Shown piece after piece: positions 3,811-51,390 of a stretch of 59,402 nucleotides of DNA. A model generated the notes under the pieces. The model saw only the letters and a program-made list of their open reading frames with translations, was not told the origin of the DNA and did no database searches. Numbering within the stretch: the first letter of the stretch is position 1; each line of letters opens with the position of its first letter. The DNA comes from Gammaproteobacteria bacterium. GTDB lineage: Bacteria; Pseudomonadota; Gammaproteobacteria; S012-40. The position numbers and the translations under genes were made by a program. Location: NCBI GenBank assembly GCA_919902765.1, contig CAKKRP010000095.1, forward strand, positions 1 to 59,402, read 5' to 3'.

Positions 3811-3843
3811 GAGACATCCTTTCAAAAACAACTGGGCCGATGA

Positions 3844-5676
3844 TTACAACGTTTTGAGATATTCGACAATCGCCATCGCCCCCGCTTGGTCGTCCGACCA
3901 ATCTAATTTATAGCGCTGGCCGTGTTCTTCGATATCGACAGCGTGTCCCTTGTTGCTTAACGCGGGAAAGCTTGTGCTATCGAATAGATAGGCCGCTGAC
4001 GCCGCCCCTTGCGGGGTTGGCGGTGGCGCGCTCCACGCAAAACCGGCAAATTTCTGGTCATACTCCAGCCGACTCTTGTAGAAAGTGGTTGGTCGTTCCT
4101 TGGGCACGAGTAAATGGTATATCGTCGGCACCGATCCATTGTGGAGGAAGGGCGCTTGCGCCCAAATGCCGTTCAGGGGGCTGGCATTATATCCATGATG
4201 TTGGTCGTTCGGAGAAATGATGAGGTCTTTTTTGCCCTCTAGCGAAACGCCTTCAAATTGGGCGCACGGCGCACTGACGACGCCTTTCATAGACACCGTG
4301 GTTGTGGGAGAGCAGATGTCATGAAATGCATTCATGCCTCCGCGACGTATCAACCAGTTCACCACATAACTGCGGTCTAGATTGGTATCCAGATTTGCGT
4401 ACACCTTGCCGTTGTGCGGTTGATGGCACTGCGCGCAGTTTTTTGCGAACAGGCGTTCGCCTTGTTTGGCCAAATTAATATCGACATCAAATGGATAGAC
4501 GGTGGCCGGTAGTTTGTCCAGCAATTCCACCGCGAAGGCGGACACGCGGATATCGATATTAGATAAACCCAAGGTGGATTGCGCCGCCAGATTGCGGTAT
4601 ATCGGGATAGGGATATTGCCGTTCCATTGTCCGCCGCCGTTGATCAGCGCTTTATGCGCGCTGTCCCATTGGGCCTTGCGATCGGTTTGCTCCCAGACCG
4701 CCATAAAATCGGTAATGCCGGGTGAATCCGGCAAAATAAAGGTGGCGAACATACGCGTGAAAAACCCTTGTTGGGCGGAATTGTAAGAATTCACCGTATA
4801 AATGCCGGTCGCATCGGCCATGCCGGGAAAGCCCTGCAACGCGCGGGCTTGAAAGCCTTTGTAGTTTTTGTCGAGCAAGGCCCCAAACCCTGTATAGTCA
4901 ATGATCGATTTATTCAGAAAGGCGTTGAGTAATTCCGTCGCCTTTTCTTTGAATAAATCGATTTGTTGCTTTTCGTAGGCGGCGTCCAGGTGTATCCAAG
5001 GTGTCTTGTAATCCCGATAAAAAAACGTAGCGCTGCTTTTTTGAGCCTGATCCAGCGCCGCAAGGAATGCAGCGACGGCCAGCCGTTGCCGTGTGGCGCT
5101 ATCCGTTTCACTGCCGAATATTTTTTGGAAGGTCTGGTAGACCTTGACTCGATAGGCGACGATGTTGAATTCCGTATTAATGCCGCCGTCGATATAGACG
5201 GTTTTGCCGCCCTCTCCGGTCACGCGACCGATGTGACAGGCCGCGCATGTGAAGGAGGTGTAGTCTACATCGCTACGGTGTGTTTCGCGCGCCAAGGCGC
5301 TGATGCCGATGCCGCGCGGCATCGGGTAGCCATTCTGGCGCGGGTCGTTGAATAATCCGACCACATCCAAGAAATTTTCTTTGCTACCCCATAACTCCGG
5401 CGCGATTACCGGCAGCAGACGTAGTGCAATATAAGGTGTGCCATCGCTTACACTGAACGCAAAATCGGCGAACCAATCGAATGCCGCCTGATGGTCTTGA
5501 ATGTATTTAGCCTTTTTTGCAATACGTTCGGATTGATTGGCGGGCCAGTTATCGGGGGTGCTTTTTACGACGGGGGGCGGGGCGGGCGCATCCAAGGGTT
5601 TATTTGAACATGCGGCGGTCATAACTACACCGCATACCAACAATACACAAAAACCATGCTTCACTGATAATGTCAT
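3844..5676 (-). CDS. Dihaem c-type cytochrome lipoprotein, RoxA/MauG-like superfamily (small paralogue)
   Basis: This 610-residue protein is clearly paralogous to the following gene along its whole length. The haem motifs are CAACH (about residues 144-148) and CAQCH (about 413-417), and it has INGGGQWNG and APFLHNGSVPTIYHLL blocks. The N-terminus ends in MTAACSN, a lipobox with Cys at about residue 23, so a membrane lipoprotein is predicted; the sister gene lacks this. The ATG at 5674-5676 has an AGGAAGG ribosome site 7 bases away and is preferred to an upstream TTG. A strong terminator separates it from the P450 gene. Tandem placement and size resemble the PA2077/PA2078 oxylipin-forming pair of P. 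aeruginosa, but orthology is inference. Confidence 0.8.
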   Translation of the reverse strand: MTLSVKHGFCVLLVCGVVMTAACSNKPLDAPAPPPVVKSTPDNWPANQSERIAKKAKYIQDHQAAFDWFADFAFSVSDGTPYIALRLLPVIAPELWGSKENFLDVVGLFNDPRQNGYPMPRGIGISALARETHRSDVDYTSFTCAACHIGRVTGEGGKTVYIDGGINTEFNIVAYRVKVYQTFQKIFGSETDSATRQRLAVAAFLAALDQAQKSSATFFYRDYKTPWIHLDAAYEKQQIDLFKEKATELLNAFLNKSIIDYTGFGALLDKNYKGFQARALQGFPGMADATGIYTVNSYNSAQQGFFTRMFATFILPDSPGITDFMAVWEQTDRKAQWDSAHKALINGGGQWNGNIPIPIYRNLAAQSTLGLSNIDIRVSAFAVELLDKLPATVYPFDVDINLAKQGERLFAKNCAQCHQPHNGKVYANLDTNLDRSYVVNWLIRRGGMNAFHDICSPTTTVSMKGVVSAPCAQFEGVSLEGKKDLIISPNDQHHGYNASPLNGIWAQAPFLHNGSVPTIYHLLVPKERPTTFYKSRLEYDQKFAGFAWSAPPPTPQGAASAAYLFDSTSFPALSNKGHAVDIEEHGQRYKLDWSDDQAGAMAIVEYLKTL

Positions 5677-5720
5677 AACCAAACCTTCCTATGGCATAGT
5701 TAAAGCGGATGTATGAGAAT

Positions 5721-5747
5721 AAAAAAAGCCGCCGCCGGGGGCGGCGC
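5721..5747 (-). terminator. Intrinsic terminator between the P450 gene and the dihaem pair
   Basis: On the minus strand a 7-bp all-GC stem (CGCCGCC with GGCGGCG, loop CCC) is followed by GC and seven T. It lies 25 bases past the P450 stop and 45 bases before the next start. Confidence 0.75.
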
Positions 5748-5771
5748 TTTGTTACTTTTCAAATGTCCGGA

Positions 5772-7103
5772 TTATTTCCACGCGAGTTGATATTCCTCGG
5801 GGAACGGCCCGTTTTTATAGTTCATCGGCGACGTTGCGCGGATATCGGTGCGTAACATTACTTGCCGCACCATCTCGGGTATCATCGCCATGCCTACATA
5901 TTTTCCTAGGCAGTCGTGGGAACCGAAGCCATAGTTGAAATTATGATACCACTGGCGATCTGATTTAAATTCGTCAGGATGATCGTACGCGTAGGTGTCA
6001 AACATCGCGGATTGGGTCAGCGTTAGGACGTTCGTACCCTTGCGTATGGTGGTTTCGCGGTCGGTACCTTTGGCGATGGTATAATCCTGCGCCGCCTGTC
6101 TAAACATATAAGGACTTATCGGTACGAAGCGCAAGGCCTCCCACACCATGGCGTCCACTTCGGCGGTATCGGCACGCGCCGCCGCCGCCTTAATACGCGC
6201 CAATAACTCGGGGCGATTTATAAAAAACTCGATGACCTGCGCGACGGCCTGGGAAGTGGTTTCAACCGCGCCTATCAATAAACCGCCCGCATTGACGCCA
6301 ATCCGCGTCAATGGAAAGTCTACTTGATCCGCAAACGCCGAACGCAACATACGTTTGACGATGTCATCCTTAAATTTTACGGGTGGCTTTTTAAAAATGG
6401 CGCGCAGGATGTTGAGAATTCGGCGACCGAGCCCAAACACGCGGTCGATAATTTTAACGGCAAGCACCTTGCGGACCATCAAGACGGTGATGTATTCCGT
6501 CAATTCCTTGGAGCACTCGGCGTGGGTGTTGACGATGCGGTTGAATTCTTCTTTCGAATTTAAATCGAACGGTTGATTATGAAACGTATTATATTGATTC
6601 CAAAATGACCATTTCAGCAGCTTTTTGCAGGCTATGCCGTCGAGTCCGAAATATTCTTGCACCATAATGGCCGGCACCATGCGGCAGTAGTTGTTGACGA
6701 TTTCAATGCCGCCGCTGGCGTCATCGAGTATGCCTTTGGCGGCGTCTTCAACGATTTTTCTGACACGCGGAATATCGTCCCGATTCAACATGCCTTGCAT
6801 CAAAGATTTCTCTCTATAATGCAGGGCGTCATCGTCATGCGCCATGAGATAGCCGGGGTCGGTCGCCGTCACCCCCATTTTCGGTTTATACAGATCCACC
6901 GTGAAAATCTTGGGCATTTGCAACACGTCCCGAATATCGGTAAACAGCGCCAATAACGTACATTCCGGCGTTACTAACACTGGACGTTTTTCGCGAAGCT
7001 GTTTAAAAAACGGCAATGGCGTTGTCTTCATCCATTGTTGCGCCAACGGGTATTTTTCCGCATCGGTGGCCGCATCGTATTCCGCAAGAAAATCCTTCGT
7101 CAT
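5772..7103 (-). CDS. Cytochrome P450 monooxygenase
   Basis: This is a soluble 443-residue bacterial-type P450. Visible motifs are the I-helix oxygen-activation site GAVETT (residues 278-283), the ExxR pair E322/R325, and the haem loop YGFGSHDCLG with cysteine ligand C398; the usual first Phe of that loop is Tyr. P450s insert one oxygen atom into an unactivated substrate using electrons from a reductase or ferredoxin. No ferredoxin or reductase gene is adjacent, so it probably uses a partner encoded elsewhere. There is no signal peptide, so it should act in the cytoplasm, unlike its exported dihaem neighbours. It begins 12 bp after the large dihaem gene (ribosome site AAGGA), which implies co-transcription. 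Confidence 0.93.
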   Translation of the reverse strand: MTKDFLAEYDAATDAEKYPLAQQWMKTTPLPFFKQLREKRPVLVTPECTLLALFTDIRDVLQMPKIFTVDLYKPKMGVTATDPGYLMAHDDDALHYREKSLMQGMLNRDDIPRVRKIVEDAAKGILDDASGGIEIVNNYCRMVPAIMVQEYFGLDGIACKKLLKWSFWNQYNTFHNQPFDLNSKEEFNRIVNTHAECSKELTEYITVLMVRKVLAVKIIDRVFGLGRRILNILRAIFKKPPVKFKDDIVKRMLRSAFADQVDFPLTRIGVNAGGLLIGAVETTSQAVAQVIEFFINRPELLARIKAAAARADTAEVDAMVWEALRFVPISPYMFRQAAQDYTIAKGTDRETTIRKGTNVLTLTQSAMFDTYAYDHPDEFKSDRQWYHNFNYGFGSHDCLGKYVGMAMIPEMVRQVMLRTDIRATSPMNYKNGPFPEEYQLAWK

Positions 7104-7115
7104 GTCTTTTTTCCT

Positions 7116-9251
7116 TTACAGCGTTTTAAGGTATTCTATTAAATCCCAGCGTTCATCCGGCGTCAACGCCGGCAGTTGGGCGCCATCCAATTGTGGCGTC
7201 CTACCGGCACCGTATTCATGGCCGCCGTTCAGGTCACCGACGCGCGTGGCGTTGAAAGTAAAGCCGCTATAACCATCCGCGCGGAACCCGATTTTAACGG
7301 GATCGAATTGGCGGCTGCCGACGACAAAGGAGTCAGGACGGTATTCCTCGGTTTTCAGATCTTTATCGCGCTTCTTCGGCAGCAATAAATCATATAACGT
7401 CGGTACCGAGCCGTTGTGCAGGTAGGGCGCGGTGGCCCATATACCGTTTAAAGAGCGGCCTTTGTACGCCAACAAGGAGTTATACGGTTGGGCCGTGGTG
7501 TCGGGTTTGTAGTTGCCGCTTTTAATAGTATTCGGAATGCTGTTTTCAAAAAAAGACGCCGCTATCGTATAGAGGGTGTCCAACCAGCGACGTATAAACC
7601 ACTTATCTGCGTCCGGCGTGGCGATGACCCCTTTGGTCACGGAAGTCAGAATCTGCACTACCGGGGCATCCTCGGCGATGATCAGATTGCCGACGGCGGT
7701 CGATTGCACGGTATGTTTTAGGTTGCCGGATTTGCCCTTGTAGGCAACGGCATTGTTTACCGCCGCCGGATCGGTGCCGACAAAATTCACGTCCGTCATT
7801 TGAGCGACGACGATCCTATCCCAGTTGTCCCGCTCTATCACTTCGTGGCACGCTTCGCAATACTCTGCATAGACTAAGCGCCCACGTGCGGCCTTTTGCT
7901 TGTCGATTACACCCAAGATGTTTTCCGGCCATTGCGGGGATTGTAGACTCTTGAGATGAGCCTCCAGCCGTCCGATATTGACGATATCGGCCGACGATTT
8001 AAAATCGACGATTTCATTCTTTTTCTTTTGCCCCGTCAGTGTCGCGGCGAGGCTGAATCCGTTTGGCTTTTTGGAAGTCCAATCGAGCGTGGCGAAGACA
8101 CCGATCACTTCCCCTGTATTGCGTCCCAGCGGGCCTACATCGCTATTATGCGCGACACCGTTCCATTGCACATAGTCGGATTTGGCGATGTCCCACAAGA
8201 AGGGATAACTGACGGGCGCGTTGGGTTCGTTGAAAATTCGATCACGCACGCGCAGTAAATCGCGTTGATTCAACCCTGGATAATCCTTTTCTTTGGACGC
8301 CAGACGATCAAGGACGATGCCGAGTTGCTTATCGACGAGGATATTTTCACCCACACCTTCCAGCACTTTGCCGATTTGCGCATCGGTCAAAATGCGTTGA
8401 TGTGCGGGCGACACGACCATTTGCAAAGCATGCGCTAGCTGATTTTTGTTGATCACATGTTGCAATACGCGGTTATAAATACGACCGAAGGCGTCCAATC
8501 GCGCATAGCCGTAATCAATATGGCTATGATTGACGGTGTTATAGAGACGCACCGTACGTGTCCATTGGTCTAGGTCTGCAACCACTTCTTCCTGACGATG
8601 GTAGTCGTTGCGGCGCGCTAACACCTTGTCAATGAAGCGCTGTTTTTTGTCCGGCTGCACCAGCGTGGCGTGCATGGCCTTTTCGAGGTCGGCCAAGAAG
8701 CTTGACATATCCGCCATGGACGGGCCGCCATCGATTCTAATGGCTGTGGTTTTACCATTTTTGCCGGTATAGTTTACCTGGCTGGTATGGCACGCCGCGC
8801 AGGTATAGCCCATAAAATCTTTGCCTTGATAGGTATCTTTCGTAAATCCGACAGGCAGGCCGTCAGGATTAAAAAATGTCGGTTTTTGCGGTAGGTAACG
8901 ATAGCGGTCCATGTTTTTGTTCGAGCGCAGGGGTTGCTGAGAGTTTTCCTCTTCCAACACCATAAAGAAATCATAAGGGATAAGATCGGAACCTTGGGTG
9001 GTGTTATAAAACCACATGCTGTCGGACGCCGACCATCCTTGATCAAGATATACCGGTGTAGAAAAATTTTCGCCAAATGCGCCGTCCTCCATGGCAATCG
9101 CGCCGCGTGTCGGATCGCTATCCCAATTTTGATAGATTTTCCCTACGCCGACGGCGAGCAGTGTCAGCGCCACGATACTAAACAGAAATAACCACTTGTG
9201 TTTGAGTAAATAAAAGATCGCCGCGAGCAAGCGCTGAAACAATGTAGCCAT
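7116..9251 (-). CDS. Dihaem c-type cytochrome, RoxA-like, N-terminal membrane anchor (large paralogue)
   Basis: This is a 711-residue exported dihaem protein. A hydrophobic anchor spans about residues 20-38. The haem motifs are CAACH (151-155) and CEACH (465-469). Blocks typical of RoxA-like proteins are visible: DSMWFYNTTQGSDLIPYDFF (75-96), SYPFLWD followed by YVQWNG (348-365), and YLHNGSVPTLYDLL (about 610-624). RoxA/RoxB cleave polyisoprene outside the cell; other relatives oxidise fatty acids. This copy is about 100 residues longer than the tandem paralogues and looks the most RoxA-like of the three. It is translationally close to the P450 (12 bp) and 208 bp downstream of the giant lipoprotein gene. 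Confidence 0.85.
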   Translation of the reverse strand: MATLFQRLLAAIFYLLKHKWLFLFSIVALTLLAVGVGKIYQNWDSDPTRGAIAMEDGAFGENFSTPVYLDQGWSASDSMWFYNTTQGSDLIPYDFFMVLEEENSQQPLRSNKNMDRYRYLPQKPTFFNPDGLPVGFTKDTYQGKDFMGYTCAACHTSQVNYTGKNGKTTAIRIDGGPSMADMSSFLADLEKAMHATLVQPDKKQRFIDKVLARRNDYHRQEEVVADLDQWTRTVRLYNTVNHSHIDYGYARLDAFGRIYNRVLQHVINKNQLAHALQMVVSPAHQRILTDAQIGKVLEGVGENILVDKQLGIVLDRLASKEKDYPGLNQRDLLRVRDRIFNEPNAPVSYPFLWDIAKSDYVQWNGVAHNSDVGPLGRNTGEVIGVFATLDWTSKKPNGFSLAATLTGQKKKNEIVDFKSSADIVNIGRLEAHLKSLQSPQWPENILGVIDKQKAARGRLVYAEYCEACHEVIERDNWDRIVVAQMTDVNFVGTDPAAVNNAVAYKGKSGNLKHTVQSTAVGNLIIAEDAPVVQILTSVTKGVIATPDADKWFIRRWLDTLYTIAASFFENSIPNTIKSGNYKPDTTAQPYNSLLAYKGRSLNGIWATAPYLHNGSVPTLYDLLLPKKRDKDLKTEEYRPDSFVVGSRQFDPVKIGFRADGYSGFTFNATRVGDLNGGHEYGAGRTPQLDGAQLPALTPDERWDLIEYLKTL

Positions 9252-9459: not shown

Positions 9460-12400
9460 CTATAGCGCATTGACCACAAATATAGTCGGCCCAAACACAT
9501 TGCCCGCGCGATCCGTGGCGGTGACGGTCAAGAAGTTGGGTCCTGGCGTCAGGCCGCTCACCGTAAATTGTCCGCTGGAGTTCACCGCCCATGCGACGCC
9601 GTTGATGGTGATCGTGGACGGCAACGTCGTGTCAGTGAGGGTGCCGCTGACGGCGCCAACGGTGGCTGTCGTCGTGGGGAGCGTCACGGTCGGTTTTATG
9701 GTGTCGAGTATGACCTTCACGGTGCTGGAATTTCTGGAATTTCCTTGGGTATCGTTCGCGGTCGCGACGAGATTGTTTTCGCCTTCGCTCAAGACCAACG
9801 CAATTCCTGGCGACGCAAATGCCGCGTAACTTACAGCGGCGCTGGTGCTTAATGTGACACCGTTGATATCTTTATCGACCACAACCACCGTGCCGGGATT
9901 CGCGTCGCTGGCCGTGCCTGAAATAACGATGGTTGAAACATTCGTTGGGCTTGCGGGATTGCTCGTTATAGATACCGAGGGCCTGTTGTTATCGCTATCG
10001 CGCGTGACGTTGACTGAGTTGGTTGACGAAATTTTATTATACGCATCGACGGCTGTAAGATCATAGCGATTGTCACCGAGCAGTAGATTGACGGTGAAAC
10101 TGTAGTTGCCAATCGCGCTGGCGGCTGTCGGATTAGGGATATCTTGAGCTACGATCAGTTGTGAGCCGACTTTTACCGTGACGGTGACTGGATTCGGCAG
10201 CGGATTGCCGTCGTTGATGCTGACGGTAAATGCGGTTGCGGCAGATTGCGTGCTGCTTTCATTGTTAGGGGCCGAGATTGTTAACGTCGGCGCACTGGTA
10301 TCGCGGATTAATAATGGCGTTAGTGTCGTCTTGTTGCCGACACCATCAACAACGTCAACGGTGTACACATAACTGCCATCGAGCGTTAGTTTATAACTAT
10401 CTGTGTATACGCCTGAAGAACTGCTGGTGATGACGCGCGGGGTGGTGTTGCCGCCGCCGGAAAACGTAACGCTGGTGATGCCGCTATTCCCGGTGGCGGT
10501 ATCGCTGGCGGCGATGCTCAATGCCGATTGCGTAGTGACCACGGTATTACCGACGAGCGTCCCGCTGTTGGCGATGCTGGCCGTGGGCGACAGTTTTTCA
10601 ATGGCGGCGATAATACTGCCGCTGGAGGTGCTTTTGCCGGTCTTGTCGGTGACCACTAAACTGATCGTGTTATCGCCGGGCGCTAAGGCCACTGTGGCGA
10701 CGCCGCTATTATTGCTGAGATTGAAGTTGAGAGAACCTGTGGCATTGCTTGCGCTCAGGGTACTGAGGGTGGTGGTCCCGGTACAATTTAAACTGGCGGT
10801 GACGGAGGATGAGGTAGCGCCTACACTATTGACCAAACGGATGTTGGCTAGATTGGCCTCGTTAACAGTAAAATTGACAGTGGTCGTCGCCAGGCTTGTA
10901 GATGCAGCGCCTAGCGTCACCACGGGTGCATCGGCGTCATATATGATATCCACAGTTTTGGTGGCGGCGTTGTTGACACTGTCGGTCGCAGTGAGATTAA
11001 ATTTGTAGCTGCCTTGGGCGGGTAGCGTCCCCGTCCAATTTTGCGTGCTCGAAGTCACGCTGCTCAAGGTCAAATTTGTTGCAGTGCCCAACTGACATTG
11101 ATTATTGCGTGTTTGATAGCGGCCCGCCAAGGTGACCGGAAAACTTTCATCAATGGCCGCGCCGCTAAGCGTCGCGCCGGCAAATATGGCAGTGTTGCTT
11201 GAGGTGTCCAATCCCGTTACGTTGATGGTGGGCGCAACGTTATCCAAGCGCGTATTAAACGTGACCGCATATTGATTGTCGGCCAAATCCAGCGCCTTCA
11301 CGACGATGGTATTTACACCCGCGCCTAAATTTATACTTCCGCTCAATTGGCCGGTCGTGGTGTCGTAGGTCAAACTGCCGGTAGTATTGGTGAGGGCGCT
11401 CGCCGCCGTCACGTCCAAAATAATTTCACCCGTAATCGGTGTGCTGCCGGCGGCGGAAACCGATGCCGACAATGTTTTTAAATTGGCCTCGCTGAGTTGT
11501 ACGACAAAACTAGTTTTAGCGGCCGCCACTACCGCAGGGGGCGCGGTGACGATGCTGAGTTGCGGTGCGAGGGTGTCGCGGTACAGCGTAAAATCCTTGG
11601 CTGCGGGGTTGCCTACACCGTCTTTCGCGGCGATATGCACCGTATTTGCGCCCTCCAACGTCAGCGGGATTTGCACGCTGACGGTCAACGCGTGCGCCCC
11701 TTCCGCGAGTACGATCCCGCCGTTGACTTGCACCGCGCTAGAAATCGGCGCAGTGCCGTCACTCACATTATAACTAAGCGTGGTGCCGGTGGTTTTGCGC
11801 CACAGGCGTTGGCCGGTAGTCGGCGGCAGCACCGGGTCCGTGACCTCAATCAAAGGAGATACGGTGTCTAATTTTACGCTGAATTGCTGCGTACTCGTGT
11901 TCGCCAATTCGTCTTGCGCCTTGATCGAAAATAGGCGCTCGCCATCGGCGGAGGCGCGCGGAGGCGTGTATGACCATTGATTAGTTGCAGTTGCCATCGC
12001 CGCAACACCATCTACCGTGACGCCTGCAACGTTGCCGCCCTCGCCATCCACTGCTTCGATAATCAAGGTATAGGGATTGAGACGTGTGCTGCCGGGTGAC
12101 ACCATACGCAGATTGGGCCCGACGCTATCTAAAAAAAAGTCCGCATTTTGTGCCAGCAATTCATTGCCCGCGATATCCAGTGCGCGTATCGCAATGGTAT
12201 TTTTACCTTGTTGCGTTAGGCGCACAGTGCCTGTCCATTCGTGGGCATTGGCACCTGCGGTCGCGGTGACAGTGCCCAGGCGTACGCCACCGACCGTGAT
12301 CGTACCAGGCGTGACGCGGACCCGCAGCGAATAGTTGGTCAACGTCGTCGTGGTGGTGGACGTTAATACGGATATGCTGGGCGCTTGGGCGGCGATGGGA

Positions 12401-15231
12401 ATGGCGGTGAACCCGTCGAATTTTGCGTGCGCGCTGGTGGCCCAAATCTGCACATTTTGTAACACGGTTTGCATCGCCGGCGCGCTCAGTGTGTAGTTGC
12501 GCATAACATACGTCAAAGCGTTATTGGCGAGTTGATATCGATAGGTGTTGGCATCTAAGGCCTGGTCGCCTAACGTCAGTGACCAGGGATTTTTTTGTTC
12601 ATCGAGCGTCACACCGTTTAATAAGCCATCCGTCACGGCGTCTTGATAGAACATCTGCGCGGCATTCACGGATGTGTATTTAACATCTGGAGCGGCGGTG
12701 CTGACGGGGCGGATTTTGCTAGTCCATTCGGACAATCCCGCCAATAACAGCGCGTAACGCGCCGCATTACTTAGCGGTACATTGCTAATATTCAAGGCAT
12801 TAGGATTGGCGGGCACGGTGGTGAATACGTCAAAGCCATAGATGGAGGTGAGGTCTGCTGCCGTTTGCGCATAAGACGCGGCGACGCTGCCACCGTTATC
12901 CACGCCGTTTTTTAACAATCCGGCACCCAAGTGCGTAAATGGCGTGACGACGACTTGCGCGTCTTGCCCAGCGTATTCGATCACGCTGGTCAGTATCTCG
13001 TTCGTTGACAACGGAGCATCCAGTTGGGTGGCGGGCTCAAAATAGCCGCCCTCGTTCAGTGCGATATAGAGAAATTGTTTGTCGGTTAAAACGCGTATCG
13101 TGCATGCGCCCTGATCGTCCGTTGTACACGCACCTACTTGCCCGCCTGGTACACCGCCTACAAAGGTATAGGCCGTAGCATGGCCTTGTTTTATGCGCGA
13201 CGCGATGCGCAATTTCGGTACATCAAAATAGGCGCGAAACTCCAAGTTGCGGGTCGCAATATTGCCTGCGGCATCGCCGATTTCCAGTGCAATGCTGTGT
13301 ACATCGGTGGGATCGCTTTGGTACCAGTCGTCAGCGAGCACCTGTTTTATCAGCGGTAGGACATACAGCGCGCCATCAGTCGCCGTGGCTTGGAAACGCC
13401 GCCATGTCGTTTTTGCGACGCCGTTTATGCGGTATTGCATATTTAGTGCGATAGCGTCGGCGCTAGTATTGTCGCTGACACGCAACGTAAAAAAAGGGAT
13501 TTTGGCATTGTTAAAAACTTGTGGATCTGCGGTAGGATTGGTATAACCCACGCGTGCGCTCGGGACATATAACGGATCTCCGGTGGCGCTTGCCTTGGCG
13601 AGATTGTCCGCTACGACGAGATTGTTGCGATAAAATTCCGCGCCGCTGTAGGTGACCGTCAATTCCGGTTTTGTATCGTCCAGCGTAACGGTGCGTACGA
13701 TCTCGCGCGACAGTCCTTGGTTGTCGGTGATGGTTATGTACAGAATATTCGCGCCGCTGGAGAGCGCCAGATCGGCGCTCCACAGCGCGTTTACAGCGTC
13801 TATCTGCGCGTTATAAACCTGTGTGCCTGCCGTCACGGTGATCGATTTAATGCCGGTGTTGCCTTCGTCTATGAAACTTCCGCTGGCAAGGTACACGCCA
13901 TTGTTGGTCAATAGCGGCGCGCCAAATTCAACGATAGGTTTGCCGTCCGGTAAGGCGACATCGAATGTTTGACGCGTAATATTGCCGACTAAATCCGTTG
14001 CCTCCACCCGCATGCGGTGTGCGCCCGGTGAAAAATCGCTGATATACAAACGTGCCAGTTTGCCGGGGAGTATATTGTCGATGTACGCAGGTTTGTCTTG
14101 CGGTGTATCTGCGTCCATGCGCACCGCGACATGCCGCAAACCGATGGTGTCCGTCACATCGACGCGATATTCGACGTATTTTTGCACGCGGTTGTAATTG
14201 ACTAGCTCAACAGGGGCATTTGAAAACACTGGCGGGTCCGTGTCAAAGGGCGGCGCAAGCGCACCTCCAAACAGCGGGTCATTGTTTTCCGCTAATGCGC
14301 GCGCCGCATTTAATATTGCGTCCATCGATAGGCGCGCGCCGACGGATTGCGCGAGCGCCACGCGCCACGCGCCTACGCCCAATTCATGGCGGTAATTGGC
14401 ACCATCCAAGGCGACGCCGCCGTATTCCAGTGCGCCGATATCGCCGTTTAGATCCCGCGTTTTACCGTCCAAGAGACCGTCGGCGCGGATATCGGCATAC
14501 ATGATTTGCAATAAACCTACGGCGGTAAAACTAGAATAAGGCGGTGAATTCGCCTGTTCGCTAATCGCTTTAGCGTAAGCTGAAAAGGCCGCCGCATACA
14601 TTCCATAGGCATATTCCTTGGTCAATACGCGTACGCTTTCATCCGCATCGGCAATACGCGCAGGCCGCGTCGTCACGATGTTGATGTCATTGCCCAATAG
14701 ACGAGCGATGCTAGCGTTGGCCTCAGCAATCGCGGTCGCCACCGCAACGTGTTGCTGGATATGAAATTCGGCAAGGCCTGTCGCAAGCGTCGTGTACGGT
14801 GTGACGTTAAACAACTCGGCGCCTGTGGCCGTGAGTAAGCCCACTGCGTAGAGTTTCTGCTCGCCCAGCTCTGAGTTGGCCAATTTCACTACCGCGCCAT
14901 TGGGTGAAATATCTTCTACGTAAGCGCCGGAGGTGGCCTCGACCAGTATCGGACCATCGGCGATGCGCCGGATATTGGCCTTATAAAATCCTAGGCGATC
15001 AGTTTGTGCGTTTCCCAATAGTGTTCCTTTGATACCCTCGGTAAAGGCGAAAATTCGCACCGTCGCTTTGTCGATGGGGCCGTCAACCACGTATCCGCCG
15101 ATAGACAATGTGCGCGCACGCGGTGCCACCGCTGATCCAGCGCCACACGCTACAAATAATGTAACCAGGATGCCTGCCAGCAGCGCGATAACAATGCGGT
15201 CTAGATACCGTTGTGAGGTAAAGATTGCCAT
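9460..15231 (-). CDS. Giant repeat lipoprotein with Ig-like domains (1923 residues)
   Basis: The hydrophobic N-terminus ends at VAC (Cys29), so a lipoprotein is predicted. Residues 44-320 form a module with GGYVVDGPI, then NVTPYTTLA and a helical stretch with DGLLDG. A diverged second copy spans about 675-935, with VTPFTHLGAG, DGLLNG and ALDANTYR. The rest (about 330-660 and 945-1923) is a series of bacterial Ig-like domains of about 85-110 residues with recurrent DxxGN and D-x-x-xP motifs. Such proteins are usually cell-surface adhesins, scaffolds or polymer binders. It ends 208 bp upstream of the large dihaem gene on the same strand, so it may be the first gene of that operon or an independent unit. 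Substrate capture for the dihaem enzymes is inference. Confidence 0.85.
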   Translation of the reverse strand: MAIFTSQRYLDRIVIALLAGILVTLFVACGAGSAVAPRARTLSIGGYVVDGPIDKATVRIFAFTEGIKGTLLGNAQTDRLGFYKANIRRIADGPILVEATSGAYVEDISPNGAVVKLANSELGEQKLYAVGLLTATGAELFNVTPYTTLATGLAEFHIQQHVAVATAIAEANASIARLLGNDINIVTTRPARIADADESVRVLTKEYAYGMYAAAFSAYAKAISEQANSPPYSSFTAVGLLQIMYADIRADGLLDGKTRDLNGDIGALEYGGVALDGANYRHELGVGAWRVALAQSVGARLSMDAILNAARALAENNDPLFGGALAPPFDTDPPVFSNAPVELVNYNRVQKYVEYRVDVTDTIGLRHVAVRMDADTPQDKPAYIDNILPGKLARLYISDFSPGAHRMRVEATDLVGNITRQTFDVALPDGKPIVEFGAPLLTNNGVYLASGSFIDEGNTGIKSITVTAGTQVYNAQIDAVNALWSADLALSSGANILYITITDNQGLSREIVRTVTLDDTKPELTVTYSGAEFYRNNLVVADNLAKASATGDPLYVPSARVGYTNPTADPQVFNNAKIPFFTLRVSDNTSADAIALNMQYRINGVAKTTWRRFQATATDGALYVLPLIKQVLADDWYQSDPTDVHSIALEIGDAAGNIATRNLEFRAYFDVPKLRIASRIKQGHATAYTFVGGVPGGQVGACTTDDQGACTIRVLTDKQFLYIALNEGGYFEPATQLDAPLSTNEILTSVIEYAGQDAQVVVTPFTHLGAGLLKNGVDNGGSVAASYAQTAADLTSIYGFDVFTTVPANPNALNISNVPLSNAARYALLLAGLSEWTSKIRPVSTAAPDVKYTSVNAAQMFYQDAVTDGLLNGVTLDEQKNPWSLTLGDQALDANTYRYQLANNALTYVMRNYTLSAPAMQTVLQNVQIWATSAHAKFDGFTAIPIAAQAPSISVLTSTTTTTLTNYSLRVRVTPGTITVGGVRLGTVTATAGANAHEWTGTVRLTQQGKNTIAIRALDIAGNELLAQNADFFLDSVGPNLRMVSPGSTRLNPYTLIIEAVDGEGGNVAGVTVDGVAAMATATNQWSYTPPRASADGERLFSIKAQDELANTSTQQFSVKLDTVSPLIEVTDPVLPPTTGQRLWRKTTGTTLSYNVSDGTAPISSAVQVNGGIVLAEGAHALTVSVQIPLTLEGANTVHIAAKDGVGNPAAKDFTLYRDTLAPQLSIVTAPPAVVAAAKTSFVVQLSEANLKTLSASVSAAGSTPITGEIILDVTAASALTNTTGSLTYDTTTGQLSGSINLGAGVNTIVVKALDLADNQYAVTFNTRLDNVAPTINVTGLDTSSNTAIFAGATLSGAAIDESFPVTLAGRYQTRNNQCQLGTATNLTLSSVTSSTQNWTGTLPAQGSYKFNLTATDSVNNAATKTVDIIYDADAPVVTLGAASTSLATTTVNFTVNEANLANIRLVNSVGATSSSVTASLNCTGTTTLSTLSASNATGSLNFNLSNNSGVATVALAPGDNTISLVVTDKTGKSTSSGSIIAAIEKLSPTASIANSGTLVGNTVVTTQSALSIAASDTATGNSGITSVTFSGGGNTTPRVITSSSSGVYTDSYKLTLDGSYVYTVDVVDGVGNKTTLTPLLIRDTSAPTLTISAPNNESSTQSAATAFTVSINDGNPLPNPVTVTVKVGSQLIVAQDIPNPTAASAIGNYSFTVNLLLGDNRYDLTAVDAYNKISSTNSVNVTRDSDNNRPSVSITSNPASPTNVSTIVISGTASDANPGTVVVVDKDINGVTLSTSAAVSYAAFASPGIALVLSEGENNLVATANDTQGNSRNSSTVKVILDTIKPTVTLPTTTATVGAVSGTLTDTTLPSTITINGVAWAVNSSGQFTVSGLTPGPNFLTVTATDRAGNVFGPTIFVVNAL

Positions 15232-44782: not shown

Positions 44783-45499
44783 ATGGCCGATGACATTGAA
44801 CAAGCGCTGATATATCGAGTCGCAAACGCGACGGTATATGATTATCCCTACCCGCATGTCTACATCCAAGATATTTTCCCTGTAGAGTACTACAAACAAT
44901 TGCTTGTCCATTTGCCTGGCGATGAACAATATGCGCGTATCACCGACACCGGGCGGGTGAAGGGCGAACGCTATGATGCGCGTTTGGTGATCGACCTTGC
45001 GGCATCGAAATTGGAACAACTATCGGTCCCGCAACGGGAATTTTGGCAAACCTGCGCGCGTTATTTATTGAACGGACCTTTTCTAGCGGGCGTGATGAGT
45101 CGTTTTAAACGTCCGATAGAAGACCGCTTTCGCTCACCAGCGGGCGCTAGAATTTCGCTGGAGTCTCAGTTGTTGTTGACCCGCGATAAGACGAGTTATA
45201 ACATCGGGCCGCATACCGATGCGCCAAGCAAGTTGCTGACATTATTATTTTATTTGCCGCACGACCACAGTCAAATTCATTTGGGCACGTCGATATATGT
45301 AGCGAAAAATCCTGATTTTCGCTGTGCGGGAGGGCCGCACCATCCATTTTCAGAATTCAAAAAAGTGACAACCGCGCGTTTCGCCCCTAATACCGTATTT
45401 GGATTTTTACGCACCGATCAGTCGTTTCACGGTGTGGAGACGATCACGGATGCCGGCGTTTCGCGCAATCTGCTCATTTTTAATGTCAAGATCAAGTAG
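44783..45499 (+). CDS. 2-oxoglutarate/Fe(II)-dependent oxygenase
   Basis: This 238-residue double-stranded beta-helix oxygenase has the iron triad HTD (H144, D146) and distal H216 (SFHGVE), with R228 (SRNL) positioned to bind 2-oxoglutarate. The N-terminus YPYPHVYIQDIFPVEYY resembles proteins annotated as 2OG-Fe(II) oxygenases of the prolyl/aspartyl hydroxylase type. It would hydroxylate a small molecule or a side chain. It lies between polA and a convergent TPR gene whose end overlaps its own by 8 bp. The acyl-ligase fusion gene follows, which makes a role in modifying an acyl product possible but unproven. Confidence 0.82.
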   Translation: MADDIEQALIYRVANATVYDYPYPHVYIQDIFPVEYYKQLLVHLPGDEQYARITDTGRVKGERYDARLVIDLAASKLEQLSVPQREFWQTCARYLLNGPFLAGVMSRFKRPIEDRFRSPAGARISLESQLLLTRDKTSYNIGPHTDAPSKLLTLLFYLPHDHSQIHLGTSIYVAKNPDFRCAGGPHHPFSEFKKVTTARFAPNTVFGFLRTDQSFHGVETITDAGVSRNLLIFNVKIK

Positions 45500-46079
45500 G
45501 TTTGGTGGTTTGCGCAATACATGCGCCAATGGCCGCGTAGGCGAGATTGAGTTGCGCGATGCCGTTTTGCGGGGCGCGCTGTAAGGCTTGTCGATAACTG
45601 CTTATCGCCGATGAAAATTCACCGCGTTGAAATTGTACATGGCCTAGGCCTAGCCATGAGGCTACCAAGTGCGGCGCGTCGCGCGTTAGCGCCGCATAAT
45701 GACCGAGCGCCGCGTCATATTTCCCTATTTTAAATAAAACCTGCGCGAATTTCTCGCGCGTTTCAGGATTGCCGGGTTCCAGATTATGCGCCGATTGTAA
45801 GTGAATTAATGCGTTTTCCAGATCGCCGCATTGATCGTAGGCGACGCCTATATTGATTTCTAACGCGGCATTTTGCGGCGCAAATTTTAGCGCCGCGTTA
45901 AGTGTCTCGATGGCCTGCGCATGTCTTCCGCCCCGCAGGTAGCAGGCGCCCAGAATATTCAATACCGCCACATCGGAGGGATATCGGCGATAGGCCTCTG
46001 CGGCGTGTTTAATGGCATCCTCGATGCGGCCCGAATTCAATGCCGTCAACGCGAGTTCTAACGCCTGTGGTGTATCCAC
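45492..46079 (-). CDS. TPR-repeat protein
   Basis: This 195-residue protein is made almost wholly of about five tetratricopeptide repeats (for example NILGACYLRGGRHAQAIETL, and INIGVAYDQCGDLENALIHL). It has no signal peptide or membrane segment. TPR proteins scaffold other proteins. Its 3' end overlaps the convergent 2OG oxygenase by 8 bp, and it diverges from the acyl-ligase gene across 42 bp, so the three genes are physically interlocked. TPR segments are often paired or fused with 2OG oxygenases (as in prolyl and aspartyl hydroxylase families), which supports a functional link as inference. Confidence 0.88.
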   Translation of the reverse strand: MDTPQALELALTALNSGRIEDAIKHAAEAYRRYPSDVAVLNILGACYLRGGRHAQAIETLNAALKFAPQNAALEINIGVAYDQCGDLENALIHLQSAHNLEPGNPETREKFAQVLFKIGKYDAALGHYAALTRDAPHLVASWLGLGHVQFQRGEFSSAISSYRQALQRAPQNGIAQLNLAYAAIGACIAQTTKPT

Positions 46080-46121
46080 GGTTATTCCCTTTTACATGTT
46101 GGCCATAGATATGCAAGCACT

Positions 46122-49091
46122 ATGCAGAGTGTAGACAACCCACAGCCCATTATGCCCGAACTAGACACCCTCCACGCGCGCATTGCCGGCAATTTAGGTC
46201 GCTTAGGCGAGCAACCCTTTTTGACCCTGGTGCATGAGGGCCGGGAAGACCGGCACCTGACTTACCGTGAGTTATGGTGTGCGCAGCAGGGCTGGGTGGC
46301 ACGCTACCAGGCCGCTAAAATACCCCCGCGCAGCACTATAATTTTAGTATTGCCACATAGCGAGGCGCTCTACGCGGCCTTAGGTGGGGCGCTGTTGGGA
46401 GCCTATATCCCCGCAGTATTTAACATTCCATCACCTAAATTGACGGAAGATATTTATTTAAAAAATATCTCTACCTTGATTGCGCAAAGTAATGCCACGT
46501 TGATCGTGACCTACACCGGCTTTGCAGAGAAATTACGTAACCATCTATATGCACATAACATACAAATACCGGTCATAAACAATGTGCCGGTTCCAGGGGA
46601 GCCGACGGGCGCGGATTTACAGCGTGTAACGCCGGATGATATCGCATTTTTACAATATTCTTCCGGTACCACGGGTCTGAAAAAAGGGGTGGCGGTGAGT
46701 CATCGCGCGTTATTGTGGCAGGTCGATGGTTATGCGCGCGCCGTGGATTTGCAGCGCGACGATGTCATTGCGAGTTGGCTGCCGCTTTATCATGATATGG
46801 GTTTGGTCGCGTGTTGGTTTTTATCATGGTTGACAGGCGTGCGGTTGATCGCGATGTCGCCATTCGAGTGGGTGCGACGACCGGTGTTGTTACTGGAAAA
46901 AATCAGTGCCTATCGGGCAACCCTATGTTGGCAACCGAATTTCGCCTATAACCATCTCGCCGCGTATATTGACCGCAATGGTTGCGCAGGCTGGGATTTA
47001 AGTCCGATGCGCATGTTTATCAATTGCTCGGAACCGGTAAGCGCGGCAAGTCATGTCAAATTTTTACACGCGTTGGCTCCCACAGGAGTCTCTGCATCCA
47101 AGCTGGCCACTTGTTACGCCATGGCGGAAAATACCTTTGCGATTACCGCAAGCCGGCCGGGGGTCCAGGTGACGGTGGAGCGCGTAGACGCGCACGAATT
47201 TACTACAGAACAACGCGCAAAACCGATATCGGAAGTATCGTCTTACAAGGAATTTGTCAGTTCCGGATCGCCCTTGCCGGGGGTTGAAATTATGATTATT
47301 GATGCAGCGGGAGGTGATCTGGGCGAACGTAGGGTCGGAGAACTGGTGGTGTATTCGCCTAGCCTATTCCAGGCATATTTTAATAACGCGGAAGAAACAG
47401 CGAGAGCTATTCATGGGAAATTTTTCCATACCGGCGATTTGGCCTATCGCGCGAATGGCGAATATTTTATCGTAGGCAGGAAAAAAGATGTCATCATCGT
47501 CGCCGGAAAAAATATTCATCCACACGACATAGAGCACGAAATAAATAATATCAGCGGTGTCATCCCCGGTCGTGGAGTGGCGTTCGGGATTGTGGATGAG
47601 ATCAGCGGCACGGAAAAAATTGTTATTATAGTCGAGACCCACGCGACCGCCGTGGATGAATGTGCGGTCTTGCAGCGCTCAGTATATAACTGTGTACATG
47701 CGCATACTGAGGTCGTCCCTGCCGATGTGCAAGTAGTCGCTCATCAATGGTTGATAAAATCCAGTTCCGGGAAAATATCGCGGGCGTTGACACGCGAAAA
47801 ATATGTATCTTTGCGGGAAAATATCGTTGAATCGGACGCACCTCCGATTCTGCAAAGCGCGTGCATACGCGACATCGGAACGCGTGTGCGAGAGACCCTA
47901 AAAAAAACCCTGTCGGGTCCGGCATTTTCGATGGTGCAACACGACGATAGTCCGTTGTTGACCGGCGGTCTATTGGATTCGTTGTCATTTGCAGGGCTAT
48001 TGGCGGCATTAGAGCGGGAATTTAAATTGCATTTTCCAACTGATATTACCCGCGATATAGATCAATTCGACAGTATTTTTAAATTGACTGCGTTGATAAC
48101 GAAAATATCGGCTATGCCTCTTTCAAACGACGCGCCACCCACGGATTGGTACGCCCACGTCGCGCAGCAATTTATCGCCGGCGAAGACCGGCGTAAATAT
48201 CAAATTGCGCCGCAACTCGCGGATGCCGATCGTTTGCCCGCGCAGCCGGATCCGGTTCTGGGAATGATTAGCGCAGCAAATTATCGTTCAAAGACGTTAA
48301 ATACCGATGCGCGCGGTTTTCGTTGCACCATACGCAACGCGCAAGCGCTGACCTTGGAAGAATTCGGTCGGTGCGCGACGCGTCGTGGTGTAGTGTTGGG
48401 AAATAGTGTCGCCTATGGCATAGGCGTCAGTGGAGATCAATATACGCTGGCGAGTCAGCTCAACGCGCACACACCGGATATCTGTTGGTACAACTTGGCG
48501 ATACGACGCTCGACGTTGGCGCAAGAAGTAGAAGCGCTGCGTCGTAATAGCCAACGGCCTATGGACTATGTGATTTGGTTTTCGGGGGTCAATAACCTGA
48601 ATTTTTTTTTGGCCGGCTTGGCGAGTCACCTGCTTACACGCACGACTGGGAAAATATCCTTAGATGAGGCGGATTGGGCCAGTAAATATGTGCGTTTTAA
48701 ACAAGGGGTGCAGGCTGAATTGACTTCGTTGGCACGTATACTGCCGGGAAATGGTGTGAGCGTTATGTTTTGCTTACAGCCGTTGTGGACATGGGCGCGA
48801 AAGCCGCTGACTTGGCAAGAATCGGCGCTTTTTTCTATTTTTGATGCCAGTGTGGATAAGCCATTGCGGCGGCCGTTAGGTGCGTTAATCGGGCCTCTAT
48901 ATCAGGACTATGCGCAATGTGTCGCCGCAGCTTGCCGCCAGGCGGGTTATCGCTTATTGGACTTTAATCGCCATCCCGAATTTAATATAAGAGGGATGTG
49001 GACCTATATTGATAGGCTGCATCTCACCGATTTTGCGCATGCCCAAGTGGCCGCCATCCTGGAAAAACATTACATAAAAAATCGTTTATAA
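46122..49091 (+). CDS. Acyl-AMP ligase / acyl carrier / SGNH hydrolase fusion protein
   Basis: This 989-residue protein contains three parts. Residues 1-570 are an adenylate-forming domain: AMP loop YSSGTTGLKKG (179-189), FHTGDL (435-440), GRKKD (452-456) and C-terminal lysine K551 in SSSGKISR. The layout fits fatty acyl-AMP ligases that load an acyl group on a carrier. Residues 590-665 form a carrier-like domain with GGLLDSLSF (S620 as phosphopantetheine site). Residues 755-985 resemble SGNH hydrolases: GNSVAYG (nucleophile S762), a GVNNLN block III, and DRLHLT near the end giving the Asp-His pair. I infer activation, carriage and release or transfer of an acyl chain by one polypeptide; product unknown. 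Confidence 0.82.
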   Translation: MQSVDNPQPIMPELDTLHARIAGNLGRLGEQPFLTLVHEGREDRHLTYRELWCAQQGWVARYQAAKIPPRSTIILVLPHSEALYAALGGALLGAYIPAVFNIPSPKLTEDIYLKNISTLIAQSNATLIVTYTGFAEKLRNHLYAHNIQIPVINNVPVPGEPTGADLQRVTPDDIAFLQYSSGTTGLKKGVAVSHRALLWQVDGYARAVDLQRDDVIASWLPLYHDMGLVACWFLSWLTGVRLIAMSPFEWVRRPVLLLEKISAYRATLCWQPNFAYNHLAAYIDRNGCAGWDLSPMRMFINCSEPVSAASHVKFLHALAPTGVSASKLATCYAMAENTFAITASRPGVQVTVERVDAHEFTTEQRAKPISEVSSYKEFVSSGSPLPGVEIMIIDAAGGDLGERRVGELVVYSPSLFQAYFNNAEETARAIHGKFFHTGDLAYRANGEYFIVGRKKDVIIVAGKNIHPHDIEHEINNISGVIPGRGVAFGIVDEISGTEKIVIIVETHATAVDECAVLQRSVYNCVHAHTEVVPADVQVVAHQWLIKSSSGKISRALTREKYVSLRENIVESDAPPILQSACIRDIGTRVRETLKKTLSGPAFSMVQHDDSPLLTGGLLDSLSFAGLLAALEREFKLHFPTDITRDIDQFDSIFKLTALITKISAMPLSNDAPPTDWYAHVAQQFIAGEDRRKYQIAPQLADADRLPAQPDPVLGMISAANYRSKTLNTDARGFRCTIRNAQALTLEEFGRCATRRGVVLGNSVAYGIGVSGDQYTLASQLNAHTPDICWYNLAIRRSTLAQEVEALRRNSQRPMDYVIWFSGVNNLNFFLAGLASHLLTRTTGKISLDEADWASKYVRFKQGVQAELTSLARILPGNGVSVMFCLQPLWTWARKPLTWQESALFSIFDASVDKPLRRPLGALIGPLYQDYAQCVAAACRQAGYRLLDFNRHPEFNIRGMWTYIDRLHLTDFAHAQVAAILEKHYIKNRL

Positions 49092-49152: not shown

Positions 49153-51390
49153 ATGTTGATCAAGAGAAAACTGCAACTGACCGGTCTTTCCGTTGTCGTG
49201 ATAATTGTAATAGGCATCGCGGTGCAATATACCACGCTTAACTCCGTCGTCGAATTAAGCGAGGAAGCTGAGTTGTTATCGGAAATCGAAATTAACATGG
49301 ATAAATTGATACGCCATGAAAGGGATTTTTTGGCGCACAAAGACCCTGCCAATATTGCAAGTTTTAATAAGACGCTGGCGGCGATGTTGGCGAATCTCGG
49401 TATCTTAAAGGAAAAATATTTCGATTCTACAGCGGAAATGCGCCATATTATAGGCGCAGAGGGGGCGCTCAATGAGTATAAGAAAATATTCGAGGAAGTC
49501 GTCGCGCTCCAAAAACGCATAGGTTTAGGGCCTGGGGATGGGCTCTACGGCCAGCTCCGCGCCGCCGAGCATAAGGCCGAGGTGTTGATCGTCGCACAAA
49601 AAAGCGACGTCATGTTGAGTCGTATGCTGATGTTACAGAGGCATGAAGAAGAGTATATGCGGCGCAGGGACGAGGCCTATGTTAAACAGTATGAGACCGA
49701 ATTTAAAGAATTTATGCAGGTTTTGGCGACACGTTCATGGCCAACCGAAACACGTAAACAAGTCGCGGACTTGACGGCTGAATATCGTCAACATTTCATG
49801 GATTTGATTGCAAGCGAGCGAATCAAAGGGGCCAAGCTGGAAGAAGGTAAGACCGGCCAGTCACGGTCCGCCATTCAAGACATAGAAAGCGTGTTGGATG
49901 AAATGAATAAAGCGTTACAGATGAGAACGGACAAGCGCGTAAAGATTGCCGAAATATCACAAATCGCGATGGCTGTGGCGATGCTGGTATTCGTAATGTC
50001 CGCGCTATTTATCGTTTATAAACGACTTGTGGGATCTTTGGATCGCTTGTTGAATGGCATGGCGAACGCGGCGAAAAACAAAGATCTATCTATACGTATT
50101 GATATATTAGGGGTAGATGAATTTGCGCAGACGGCCCACGCATTTAATCAGATGTCCTCTGAATATGACGCTATTATGCGGCGTCTGTCGCAATCCTCGC
50201 TGGGCTTGAGCACCACTGCGAGCGAGTTGAATGCGATTACGGAACGCACCAATCAAGGCGTCAATCGGCAATATCAAGAAAGCGATCAAGTGGCGACCGC
50301 CATGAACGAAATGGCGGCGACCGTGCAAGAGGTCGCGCGCAATGCCGCAGAGGCTGCGAAGGCATCGGGTAGCGCGTCGGAATATGCGATGCAAGGTAAA
50401 GATGTCGTGACGCGGGCGGGCAACGGTTTGCGCGCGCTGGCCGACGAGGTGACGAATACCGCCAAGGCGATTTCACAATTGGAAAAGGAAAGCGATAACA
50501 TCGGCACCGTCTTGAGTGTCATACAAAGCATCGCCGAACAAACTAACCTATTGGCCTTAAACGCCGCGATTGAGGCCGCGCGCGCCGGCGAGTCCGGGCG
50601 CGGCTTCGCGGTCGTCGCCGATGAAGTGCGTACGCTTGCGCAGCGCAGCAAAGTGTCTACCGAGGAGATTAAGGCGATTATCGAGCGTTTGCAAACCGTT
50701 GCGCGTACTGCGGTACAAGCGATGGATGCAGGGCTAAAACAAAGTTCTATTGCGGTTGAGCAGGCGGACGCTGCGGGCGCGACCTTGGAACAAATCGCCA
50801 ATGCGGTATTGCAAATTAACGATATGAATTCGCAAATCGCCACTGCGGCCGAGGAACAATATGCGGTGGCGGAAACCGTCAATGCGAGCGTGACGACCAT
50901 CGCGAGTATATCCGATGAAACCGCGCAATTGGCGAAAAAAACCCTCGAAACCGGTAATCACCTTGCAACCCTGGCGATGGAGTTGCACCAGGCGATAGGC
51001 GTATTCAAGCTGGGTTCTCATTTGGATCTCTCTAAGGCCAAGAGTGCGCATCTGGCATGGAAGGCGAAATTGCGCTCGTTCTTGGATGGGCAGCAGACGC
51101 TGAGCCTGGAAGAAGCGGTGTCGCATAAGCATTGTGTGCTGGGTAAATGGTATTACAGCGACGGGTTGCAAAAATTCGGGCATATCCAGGCGATGCAAGA
51201 GGTCGAGCATCCCCATGCAGAGATGCACGGATTGATTAAAAATATCATTGAACTGAAACAAAAAGGCGATCACGCAGCGGCCGAAAAAATTTACGCGCAG
51301 GTGGCTCCATTATCTGAACGGATTGTGGCCTTGTTGTCGGATGTCGAACAGGCCGCCAATGCGGCTCCAAAGCTAGCGGCGAATTCCTGA
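49153..51390 (+). CDS. Methyl-accepting chemotaxis protein with C-terminal CZB zinc-binding domain
   Basis: This is a 745-residue chemoreceptor. TM1 lies at about residues 8-28, followed by a long helical periplasmic sensor (about 30-265, HBM-like helical bundle by appearance) and TM2 (about 272-292). A HAMP linker follows. The cytoplasmic signalling tip reads [19 protein letters not shown] (about 461-479), which contacts CheA/CheW. The C-terminal 100 residues form a CZB domain with HLAW, HxxCxLGKWYY (about 657-667) and EHPHAEMH, supplying the His3-Cys zinc site. CZB domains sense zinc or oxidants such as hypochlorous acid. No che genes are adjacent. The ribosome site (AGAGAT) is moderate. 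Confidence 0.93.

Follow-up and report, generated by a model that had tools for sequence, protein, structure and literature searches.

The 59,402-nucleotide contig CAKKRP010000095.1 of a gammaproteobacterial genome (assembly GCA_919902765.1), which is referred to here at its full length as the window, contains a 4.3-kb stretch of three genes flanked by polA and a CZB-domain chemoreceptor gene. The three genes are predicted to encode a 2-oxoglutarate (2OG)-dependent Fe(II) oxygenase, a tetratricopeptide repeat (TPR) protein, and a fusion protein in which a fatty acyl-AMP ligase (FAAL), an acyl carrier protein (ACP), and an SGNH hydrolase-like domain follow one another in a single polypeptide. 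All three open reading frames (ORFs) had been recognized in a first-pass annotation of the sequence, and they were confirmed at the following positions (aa, amino acids):

44783..45499, plus strand: predicted 2OG-Fe(II) oxygenase gene, 238 aa, with H144, D146, H216, and R228
45492..46079, minus strand: TPR protein gene, 195 aa, with five TPRs
45492..45499, no strand assigned: shared 3′ ends of the oxygenase and TPR genes, an 8-bp overlap of the same length in a second species of the genus (genome G001)
46122..49091, plus strand: FAAL-ACP-SGNH fusion gene, 989 aa
46236..47813, plus strand: predicted acyl-AMP ligase domain of the fusion, residues ~39-564, with A3 YSSGTTGLKKG at 179-189, A5 YAMAE at 332-336, TGD at 437-439, and the A10 lysine K551
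47874..48101, plus strand: predicted acyl carrier domain of the fusion, residues ~585-660, with GLLDSL containing S620 (codon 47979-47981)
48198..49088, plus strand: CgnD-like SGNH domain of the fusion, residues ~693-989, with S762 (48405-48407), N824 (48591-48593), D964 (49011-49013), and H967 (49020-49022)
49153..51390, plus strand: methyl-accepting chemotaxis protein with HAMP, MCPsignal, and CZB, a conserved downstream neighbor of the fusion

The N-terminal domain of the fusion gives an AMP-binding match over residues 39-420 (E=1.1e-43), and its best matches in both NCBIfam and PDB are FAALs. It retains all of the ANL core motifs A3, A5, A7, and A10, including the catalytic lysine. The A5-A7 segment, the length of which serves as a proxy for the FAAL-specific insertion and is not a structural test, comprises 99 residues in the window, compared to 96-109 residues in the other FAAL-type and 63-74 residues in the coenzyme A (CoA)-ligase-type sequences of the same set. 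From its best matches, the A5-A7 spacing, and its position in the ligase tree, the domain is predicted to be of the FAAL type. The central domain bears the phosphopantetheine-serine DSL/DSF motif of an acyl carrier protein, which reads GLLDSL in the window (S620), GLLDSL in G001, and GLIDSF in a fusion from another class of Pseudomonadota (genome G394). The PP-binding Pfam match is below the cut-off in the window (E=0.13) and above it in G001 (E=2.9e-5) and G394 (E=2.5e-5). One protein of the phosphopantetheinyl transferase family is encoded in the window genome. An origin in a nonribosomal peptide synthetase (NRPS) or polyketide synthase (PKS) pathway is ruled out by the finding of no NRPS condensation domain in that genome, and no PKS/NRPS gene lies in the window neighborhood; the first-pass annotation had named a place within a known pathway of this kind as a finding that would speak against its proposal.

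The C-terminal domain is homologous to CgnD (PDB 8a2n) over its length, with E-values of 8e-23 for the single sequence and 2.8e-45 as a profile, and the profile search of structures matched no thioesterase structure. GDSL_2 is matched by the window fusion below the cut-off (E=1.7e-5) and by the G394 fusion above it (E=1.5e-8). The serine of block I, the asparagine of block III, and the Asp-x-x-His of block V (S74, N136, D276, and H279 in domain numbering) are invariant in nine homologues; these residues and S620, on the conservation of which the first-pass annotation had made its proposal depend, are thus kept. Several glycines are also invariant across the SGNH homologues, and one of them may be the oxyanion-hole glycine of block II. 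PHROGs searches with this domain and with the oxygenase returned nothing informative. Collectively, the domains and their conserved motifs indicate that one polypeptide would be able, in principle, to activate an acyl group, carry it, and release or transfer it, as had been proposed, and the chain from activation through carriage to transfer or hydrolysis is intact in fusions of two classes.

The G394 fusion, a protein of 1003 aa, was found by a profile search of 398 Pseudomonadota genomes. It is colinear with the window fusion (35% identity over 978 residues), shows the same succession of AMP-binding, PP-binding, and GDSL_2, and retains A3/A5/A7/A10 as well as the serine of the carrier and the Ser/Asn/Asp/His of the SGNH domain. 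In the ligase tree, the ligase domains of the three fusions group as a single clade with support of 100/100. From this clade and the colinear G394 copy, the fusion architecture most likely arose once and then spread, most simply by horizontal transfer. An assembly artefact is ruled out by the same-genus copy together with the distant one. Because the surveyed genomes are only a sample, with 369 genomes from the class, 398 from the phylum, 48 from G394's order, and 337 from another class, further fusions may exist. Within the window's own order, the fusion was found in no other genus. One scan of genome contigs gave matches only in G001 and in a Saccharopolyspora relative.

In G001, the gene order, the 8-bp overlap, and the 42-bp gap between the TPR and fusion genes are all identical to those of the window. 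The G001 locus is spread over two contigs with the break inside the fusion, one of which is public as JAOUGF010000016.1 (a Gammaproteobacteria metagenome-assembled genome). Protein identity between the two species is 79% for the oxygenase, the best conserved of the three genes, 54% for the TPR protein, 60% for the ligase-carrier part, and 68% for the SGNH domain, compared to 89-90% for the housekeeping neighbors PolA and fructose-bisphosphatase. The three genes have nonsynonymous divergence (dN) of 0.13-0.39 and synonymous divergence (dS) near or beyond saturation. These values and the conserved layout show that all three genes are real and not chance frames; they are under purifying constraint and evolve faster than their housekeeping neighbors. 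In particular, the TPR ORF as a chance antisense frame is ruled out by TPR profiles (TPR_16, E=1.5e-26) and by its 54% identity with the G001 protein. The TPR gene is convergent with the oxygenase gene and divergent from the fusion gene. Its overlap with the oxygenase 3′ end, which had led to the description of the genes as interlocked, is present; because the TPR gene lies on the minus strand, this interlocking consists of shared ends and not of one operon. A scan of the locus for promoters and terminators gave signal at chance level only. The downstream chemoreceptor (49153..51390) could be regarded only as a candidate part of the fusion system.

In the SGNH tree, in which CgnD itself is not a row, the fusion SGNHs and a stand-alone copy of the window genome form one clade (support 99/96). 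The stand-alone gene (L037:9132-10112) follows a radical S-adenosylmethionine (SAM)-SPASM gene within a flagellar glycosylation island that also holds genes for GT41 enzymes, flagellin, FliD, and the hook, the flagellins being ~10 kb away. The G394 fusion likewise follows a radical SAM-SPASM gene, in its case 4 bp downstream, and the two radical SAM-SPASM genes are homologous, with 46% identity. The next-nearest SGNHs by tree are located with Wzm/Wzt polysaccharide export genes (L093) and with aminosugar genes (L094). Linkage to flagellin or glycosyltransferase genes is found only for the paralogue at L037 and not at the window locus, which neighbors polA and the chemoreceptor gene. As a separate observation, the flagellar glycosylation island of the window genome (G000:C63:1-44000; L162, L037, and L163) carries several TPR/GT41 glycosyltransferases, FkbM-type methyltransferases, and the radical SAM-SPASM and SGNH pair, followed by FlaG, FliD, FliS, and flagellins.

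Another SGNH clade, separate with support of 100/100, is tied to NodU-type carbamoyltransferases, and at several loci to haem-oxygenase-like enzymes as well, within secondary-metabolite-like clusters, a setting resembling that of crocagin. CgnD is a hydrolase of crocagin biosynthesis, a pathway that includes a dioxygenase, and acts there as a slow peptidase that removes the leader peptide (PMC10070186). No carbamoyltransferase was found in the window neighborhood. A crocagin-like cluster for a ribosomally synthesized and post-translationally modified peptide (RiPP) is ruled out for the window, since its SGNH domain groups with the copies from glycan clusters and no carbamoyltransferase lies beside the fusion. 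Pairs of a CgnD-like SGNH and a NodU-type carbamoyltransferase recur at L053, L058, L059, L060, L061, L062, L095, L096, and L097, several of which add a 700-740-aa haem-oxygenase-like iron enzyme, LysE exporters, or ATP-grasp enzymes. These clusters, present in Actinomycetota and Pseudomonadota, apparently represent a widespread and little-described biosynthetic cluster type. The one at L059 (NZ_CP104448.1) is carried by a 4.09-Mb Acinetobacter record labeled as a plasmid, which, judging from this size, is probably a mislabeled chromosome.

For the oxygenase, no Pfam family was matched above the cut-off, and a PDB sequence search returned nothing informative. The iron triad H144, D146, and H216 and the residue R228 are kept in an alignment of 28 sequences, and the AlphaFold2 model (pLDDT 94) has its best Foldseek matches in PolD and PasI (E ~1e-11), oxygenases that belong to nucleoside antibiotic pathways. 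With the HxD...H triad, a 2OG-binding arginine, and a double-stranded beta-helix in the model, the protein is predicted to be an Fe(II)/2OG oxygenase. In the same bacterial family, its relatives adjoin FkbM methyltransferases, as at L055 within a flagellar island, and relatives occur without the fusion. Moreover, relatives are encoded in 63 viral contigs. In three of these that were examined, the oxygenase gene follows an FkbM methyltransferase gene (L102:1899-3660, L103:2222-3702, and L111:1659-3690), and a P22-like portal gene comes directly after it in L102. On the viral contig L100 (L100:799-3627), a 942-aa MptE-like/methyltransferase/FkbM protein has the oxygenase at its C terminus. The phage pairs of oxygenase and FkbM suggest phage-encoded glycan tailoring, and the oxygenase family looks like a glycan-tailoring enzyme because its relatives pair with FkbM in the flagellar island and in phages. 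A more distant relative (L098, G040:C213) was observed beside an ATP-grasp-like gene, near another 2OG oxygenase and a glycosyltransferase-like gene.

The reading that we tentatively prefer, while holding it at somewhat less than an even chance, is that the fusion is a self-loading acyl-decoration enzyme for a glycan. The substrate adenylated by the FAAL domain would be a carboxylic acid (probably a fatty acid or a short hydroxy acid), and the acyl group would pass to phosphopantetheine on S620 of the fusion's own carrier, bypassing CoA. S762 of the SGNH domain would then take the acyl group and transfer it to a hydroxyl group, either on a cytoplasmic glycan precursor or on a glycosylated protein; alternatively, the SGNH domain could be a trimming esterase that removes an acyl group from a glycan hydroxyl. 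The acceptor would most likely be a flagellar or surface glycan, in this genus either that sugar or the acyl group could be hydroxylated by the neighboring 2OG oxygenase, and the TPR protein could dock the partners. What we infer here is which acyl group is used, that it is transferred and not hydrolyzed, that the oxygenase and the TPR protein act jointly with the fusion, and that the acceptor is a glycan, the last because of the gene context of the relatives and not of the window locus itself, which is without sugar genes. A more specific form, in which a CoA-independent one-protein transferase, through its SGNH domain, moves the acyl group from the carrier loaded by its own FAAL onto a flagellar or surface glycan, with the 2OG oxygenase, or elsewhere the radical SAM enzyme, modifying the same glycan, is possible but rather doubtful. 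In broad terms, the fusion probably acts as a self-sufficient enzyme that adds an acyl group to a sugar coat or takes one off, rather than as part of an antibiotic assembly line. Of the lipid or acyl tailoring suggested in the first-pass annotation, the acyl chemistry stands in principle, whereas lipid tailoring has weaker support than glycan decoration, since the SGNH domain and the oxygenase both have their closest relatives in glycan clusters. Several points weigh against glycan acylation: no flagellar or sugar gene adjoins the window locus, the link with the oxygenase and TPR genes is confined to one genus, the sequence gives no reading of the substrate, the only characterized relative, CgnD, is a slow peptidase and not an acyltransferase (PMC10070186), and the AlphaFold2 model of the carrier and SGNH domains is of low confidence (pLDDT 49; three-row alignment).

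In two species, a ligase, a carrier, an oxygenase, and a hydrolase are encoded next to one another, and the oxygenase gene is the best conserved. This would also fit a cassette for carrier-tethered hydroxylation, in which the acid on S620 is hydroxylated in trans by the 2OG oxygenase and the SGNH domain, as a thioesterase, frees the hydroxy acid. Comparable cassettes are the nikkomycin sets of adenylation-peptidyl carrier protein didomain, hydroxylase, and thioesterase and the FAAL, ACP, 2OG oxygenase, and thioesterase genes for isonitrile lipopeptides, and TesA is an example of a true thioesterase with the SGNH fold. However, the G394 genome has no member of this oxygenase family, the oxygenase relatives adjoin FkbM methyltransferases with no acyl carrier beside them, and the CgnD-like SGNH domain found no thioesterase structure even by profile; we judge such a cassette quite unlikely. 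The absence of the oxygenase family from G394 would instead suit an explanation in which the oxygenase, TPR protein, and fusion are unrelated neighbors and the fusion works either by itself or together with a radical SAM enzyme from another locus. The opposite strand of the TPR gene, the retention of the trio in one genus only, and the position of both the G394 fusion and the own-genome SGNH behind a homologous radical SAM-SPASM gene all favor it, and it is unlikely without being negligible, as the overlap and gap are exactly kept at 54-79% protein identity and relatives of the SGNH domain and of the oxygenase both occur within flagellar islands in the same bacterial family. The earlier idea of the three-gene set as a functional module is not supported in the form first given, with the set kept in a single genus, no oxygenase relative in G394, and oxygenase relatives elsewhere without the fusion.

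CgnD, the only solved relative, belongs to a pathway that also has a dioxygenase and cuts off the leader peptide there, and radical SAM-SPASM enzymes often act on peptides. By analogy, the SGNH domain could act on a peptide, with the ligase-carrier part either N-acylating or esterifying a peptide that a radical SAM-SPASM enzyme and a 2OG oxygenase have matured. Such a peptide-modifying system is very unlikely, given that the crocagin-like SGNHs form their own well-supported clade tied to carbamoyltransferases, which are absent at the window, and that no precursor-peptide candidate was seen, short ORFs not having been systematically searched.

Elsewhere in the window, the minus-strand region 1969-9251 holds a RoxA-like cytochrome c gene (Pfam, 1969-3831) and two similar cytochrome-like genes recognized by eye, with a cytochrome P450 gene at 5772-7103 amid them, an unusual grouping. 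A putative surface protein of 1923 aa with bacterial Ig-like domains is encoded at 9460-15231 on the minus strand.

Among known systems, the closest in ligase type are the FAAL fusions. In the available part of a FAAL survey (PMC8460268), bacterial fusions with a lysophospholipid acyltransferase (LPLAT) and with an aminoadipate reductase are described, and known bacterial FAALs otherwise sit with PKS/NRPS genes, apart from described exceptions; because of these exceptions, the absent PKS/NRPS context of the window locus and genome is no bar to FAAL membership. The window fusion shares with FAAL-ACP didomains and fusions (PMC8460268; ambruticin FAAL-ACP) the ligase type and a fused carrier replacing CoA, and differs in its SGNH partner, which is not among the fusions in that part of the survey, and in a genome without an NRPS condensation domain. 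The ACP-FAAL-LPLAT proteins of related Gammaproteobacteria (~940 aa; L009-L017) similarly combine activation, carriage, and transfer in one protein, but they have an N-terminal carrier, a C-terminal PlsC-like acyltransferase identified by eye, and a ligase outside the fusion clade; by the different domain order and the ligase position, this type is ruled out for the window fusion.

CgnD has a homologous SGNH domain (profile E=2.8e-45), whereas it stands alone in a RiPP cluster with a carbamoyltransferase, and the window SGNH is fused to FAAL-ACP and groups with SGNHs of glycan clusters. The isonitrile lipopeptide cassette consists of FAAL, ACP, thioesterase, 2OG oxygenase, and NRPS. This is a comparable set of activities, but the window has no NRPS, an SGNH domain in place of the thioesterase, and ligase, carrier, and hydrolase in one chain, and the best structural matches of its oxygenase are instead PolD and PasI. 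In Enterobacteriaceae, ACPs and fatty acid CoA ligases are often encoded within flagellin glycosylation islands (PMC4875605), and the nearest SGNH and oxygenase relatives are found in islands of this kind, although the window locus itself lies outside such an island. The order of AMP-binding, PP-binding, and SGNH, which the first-pass annotation did not recognize as that of a described enzyme, has no description in the literature searched, where absence is not proof, and it recurs in G001 and G394; the fusion combines known domains in a recurring order that is apparently undescribed, and in an unusual context. The role for which FAALs are chiefly known is the loading of polyketide and peptide assembly lines. 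Here, in a recurring and apparently horizontally spread form, the loader and its carrier are joined to a CgnD-like SGNH domain and stand apart from any such line. This fusion points to a CoA-independent route of acyl decoration, and as a compact one-protein enzyme it is directly testable in vitro.

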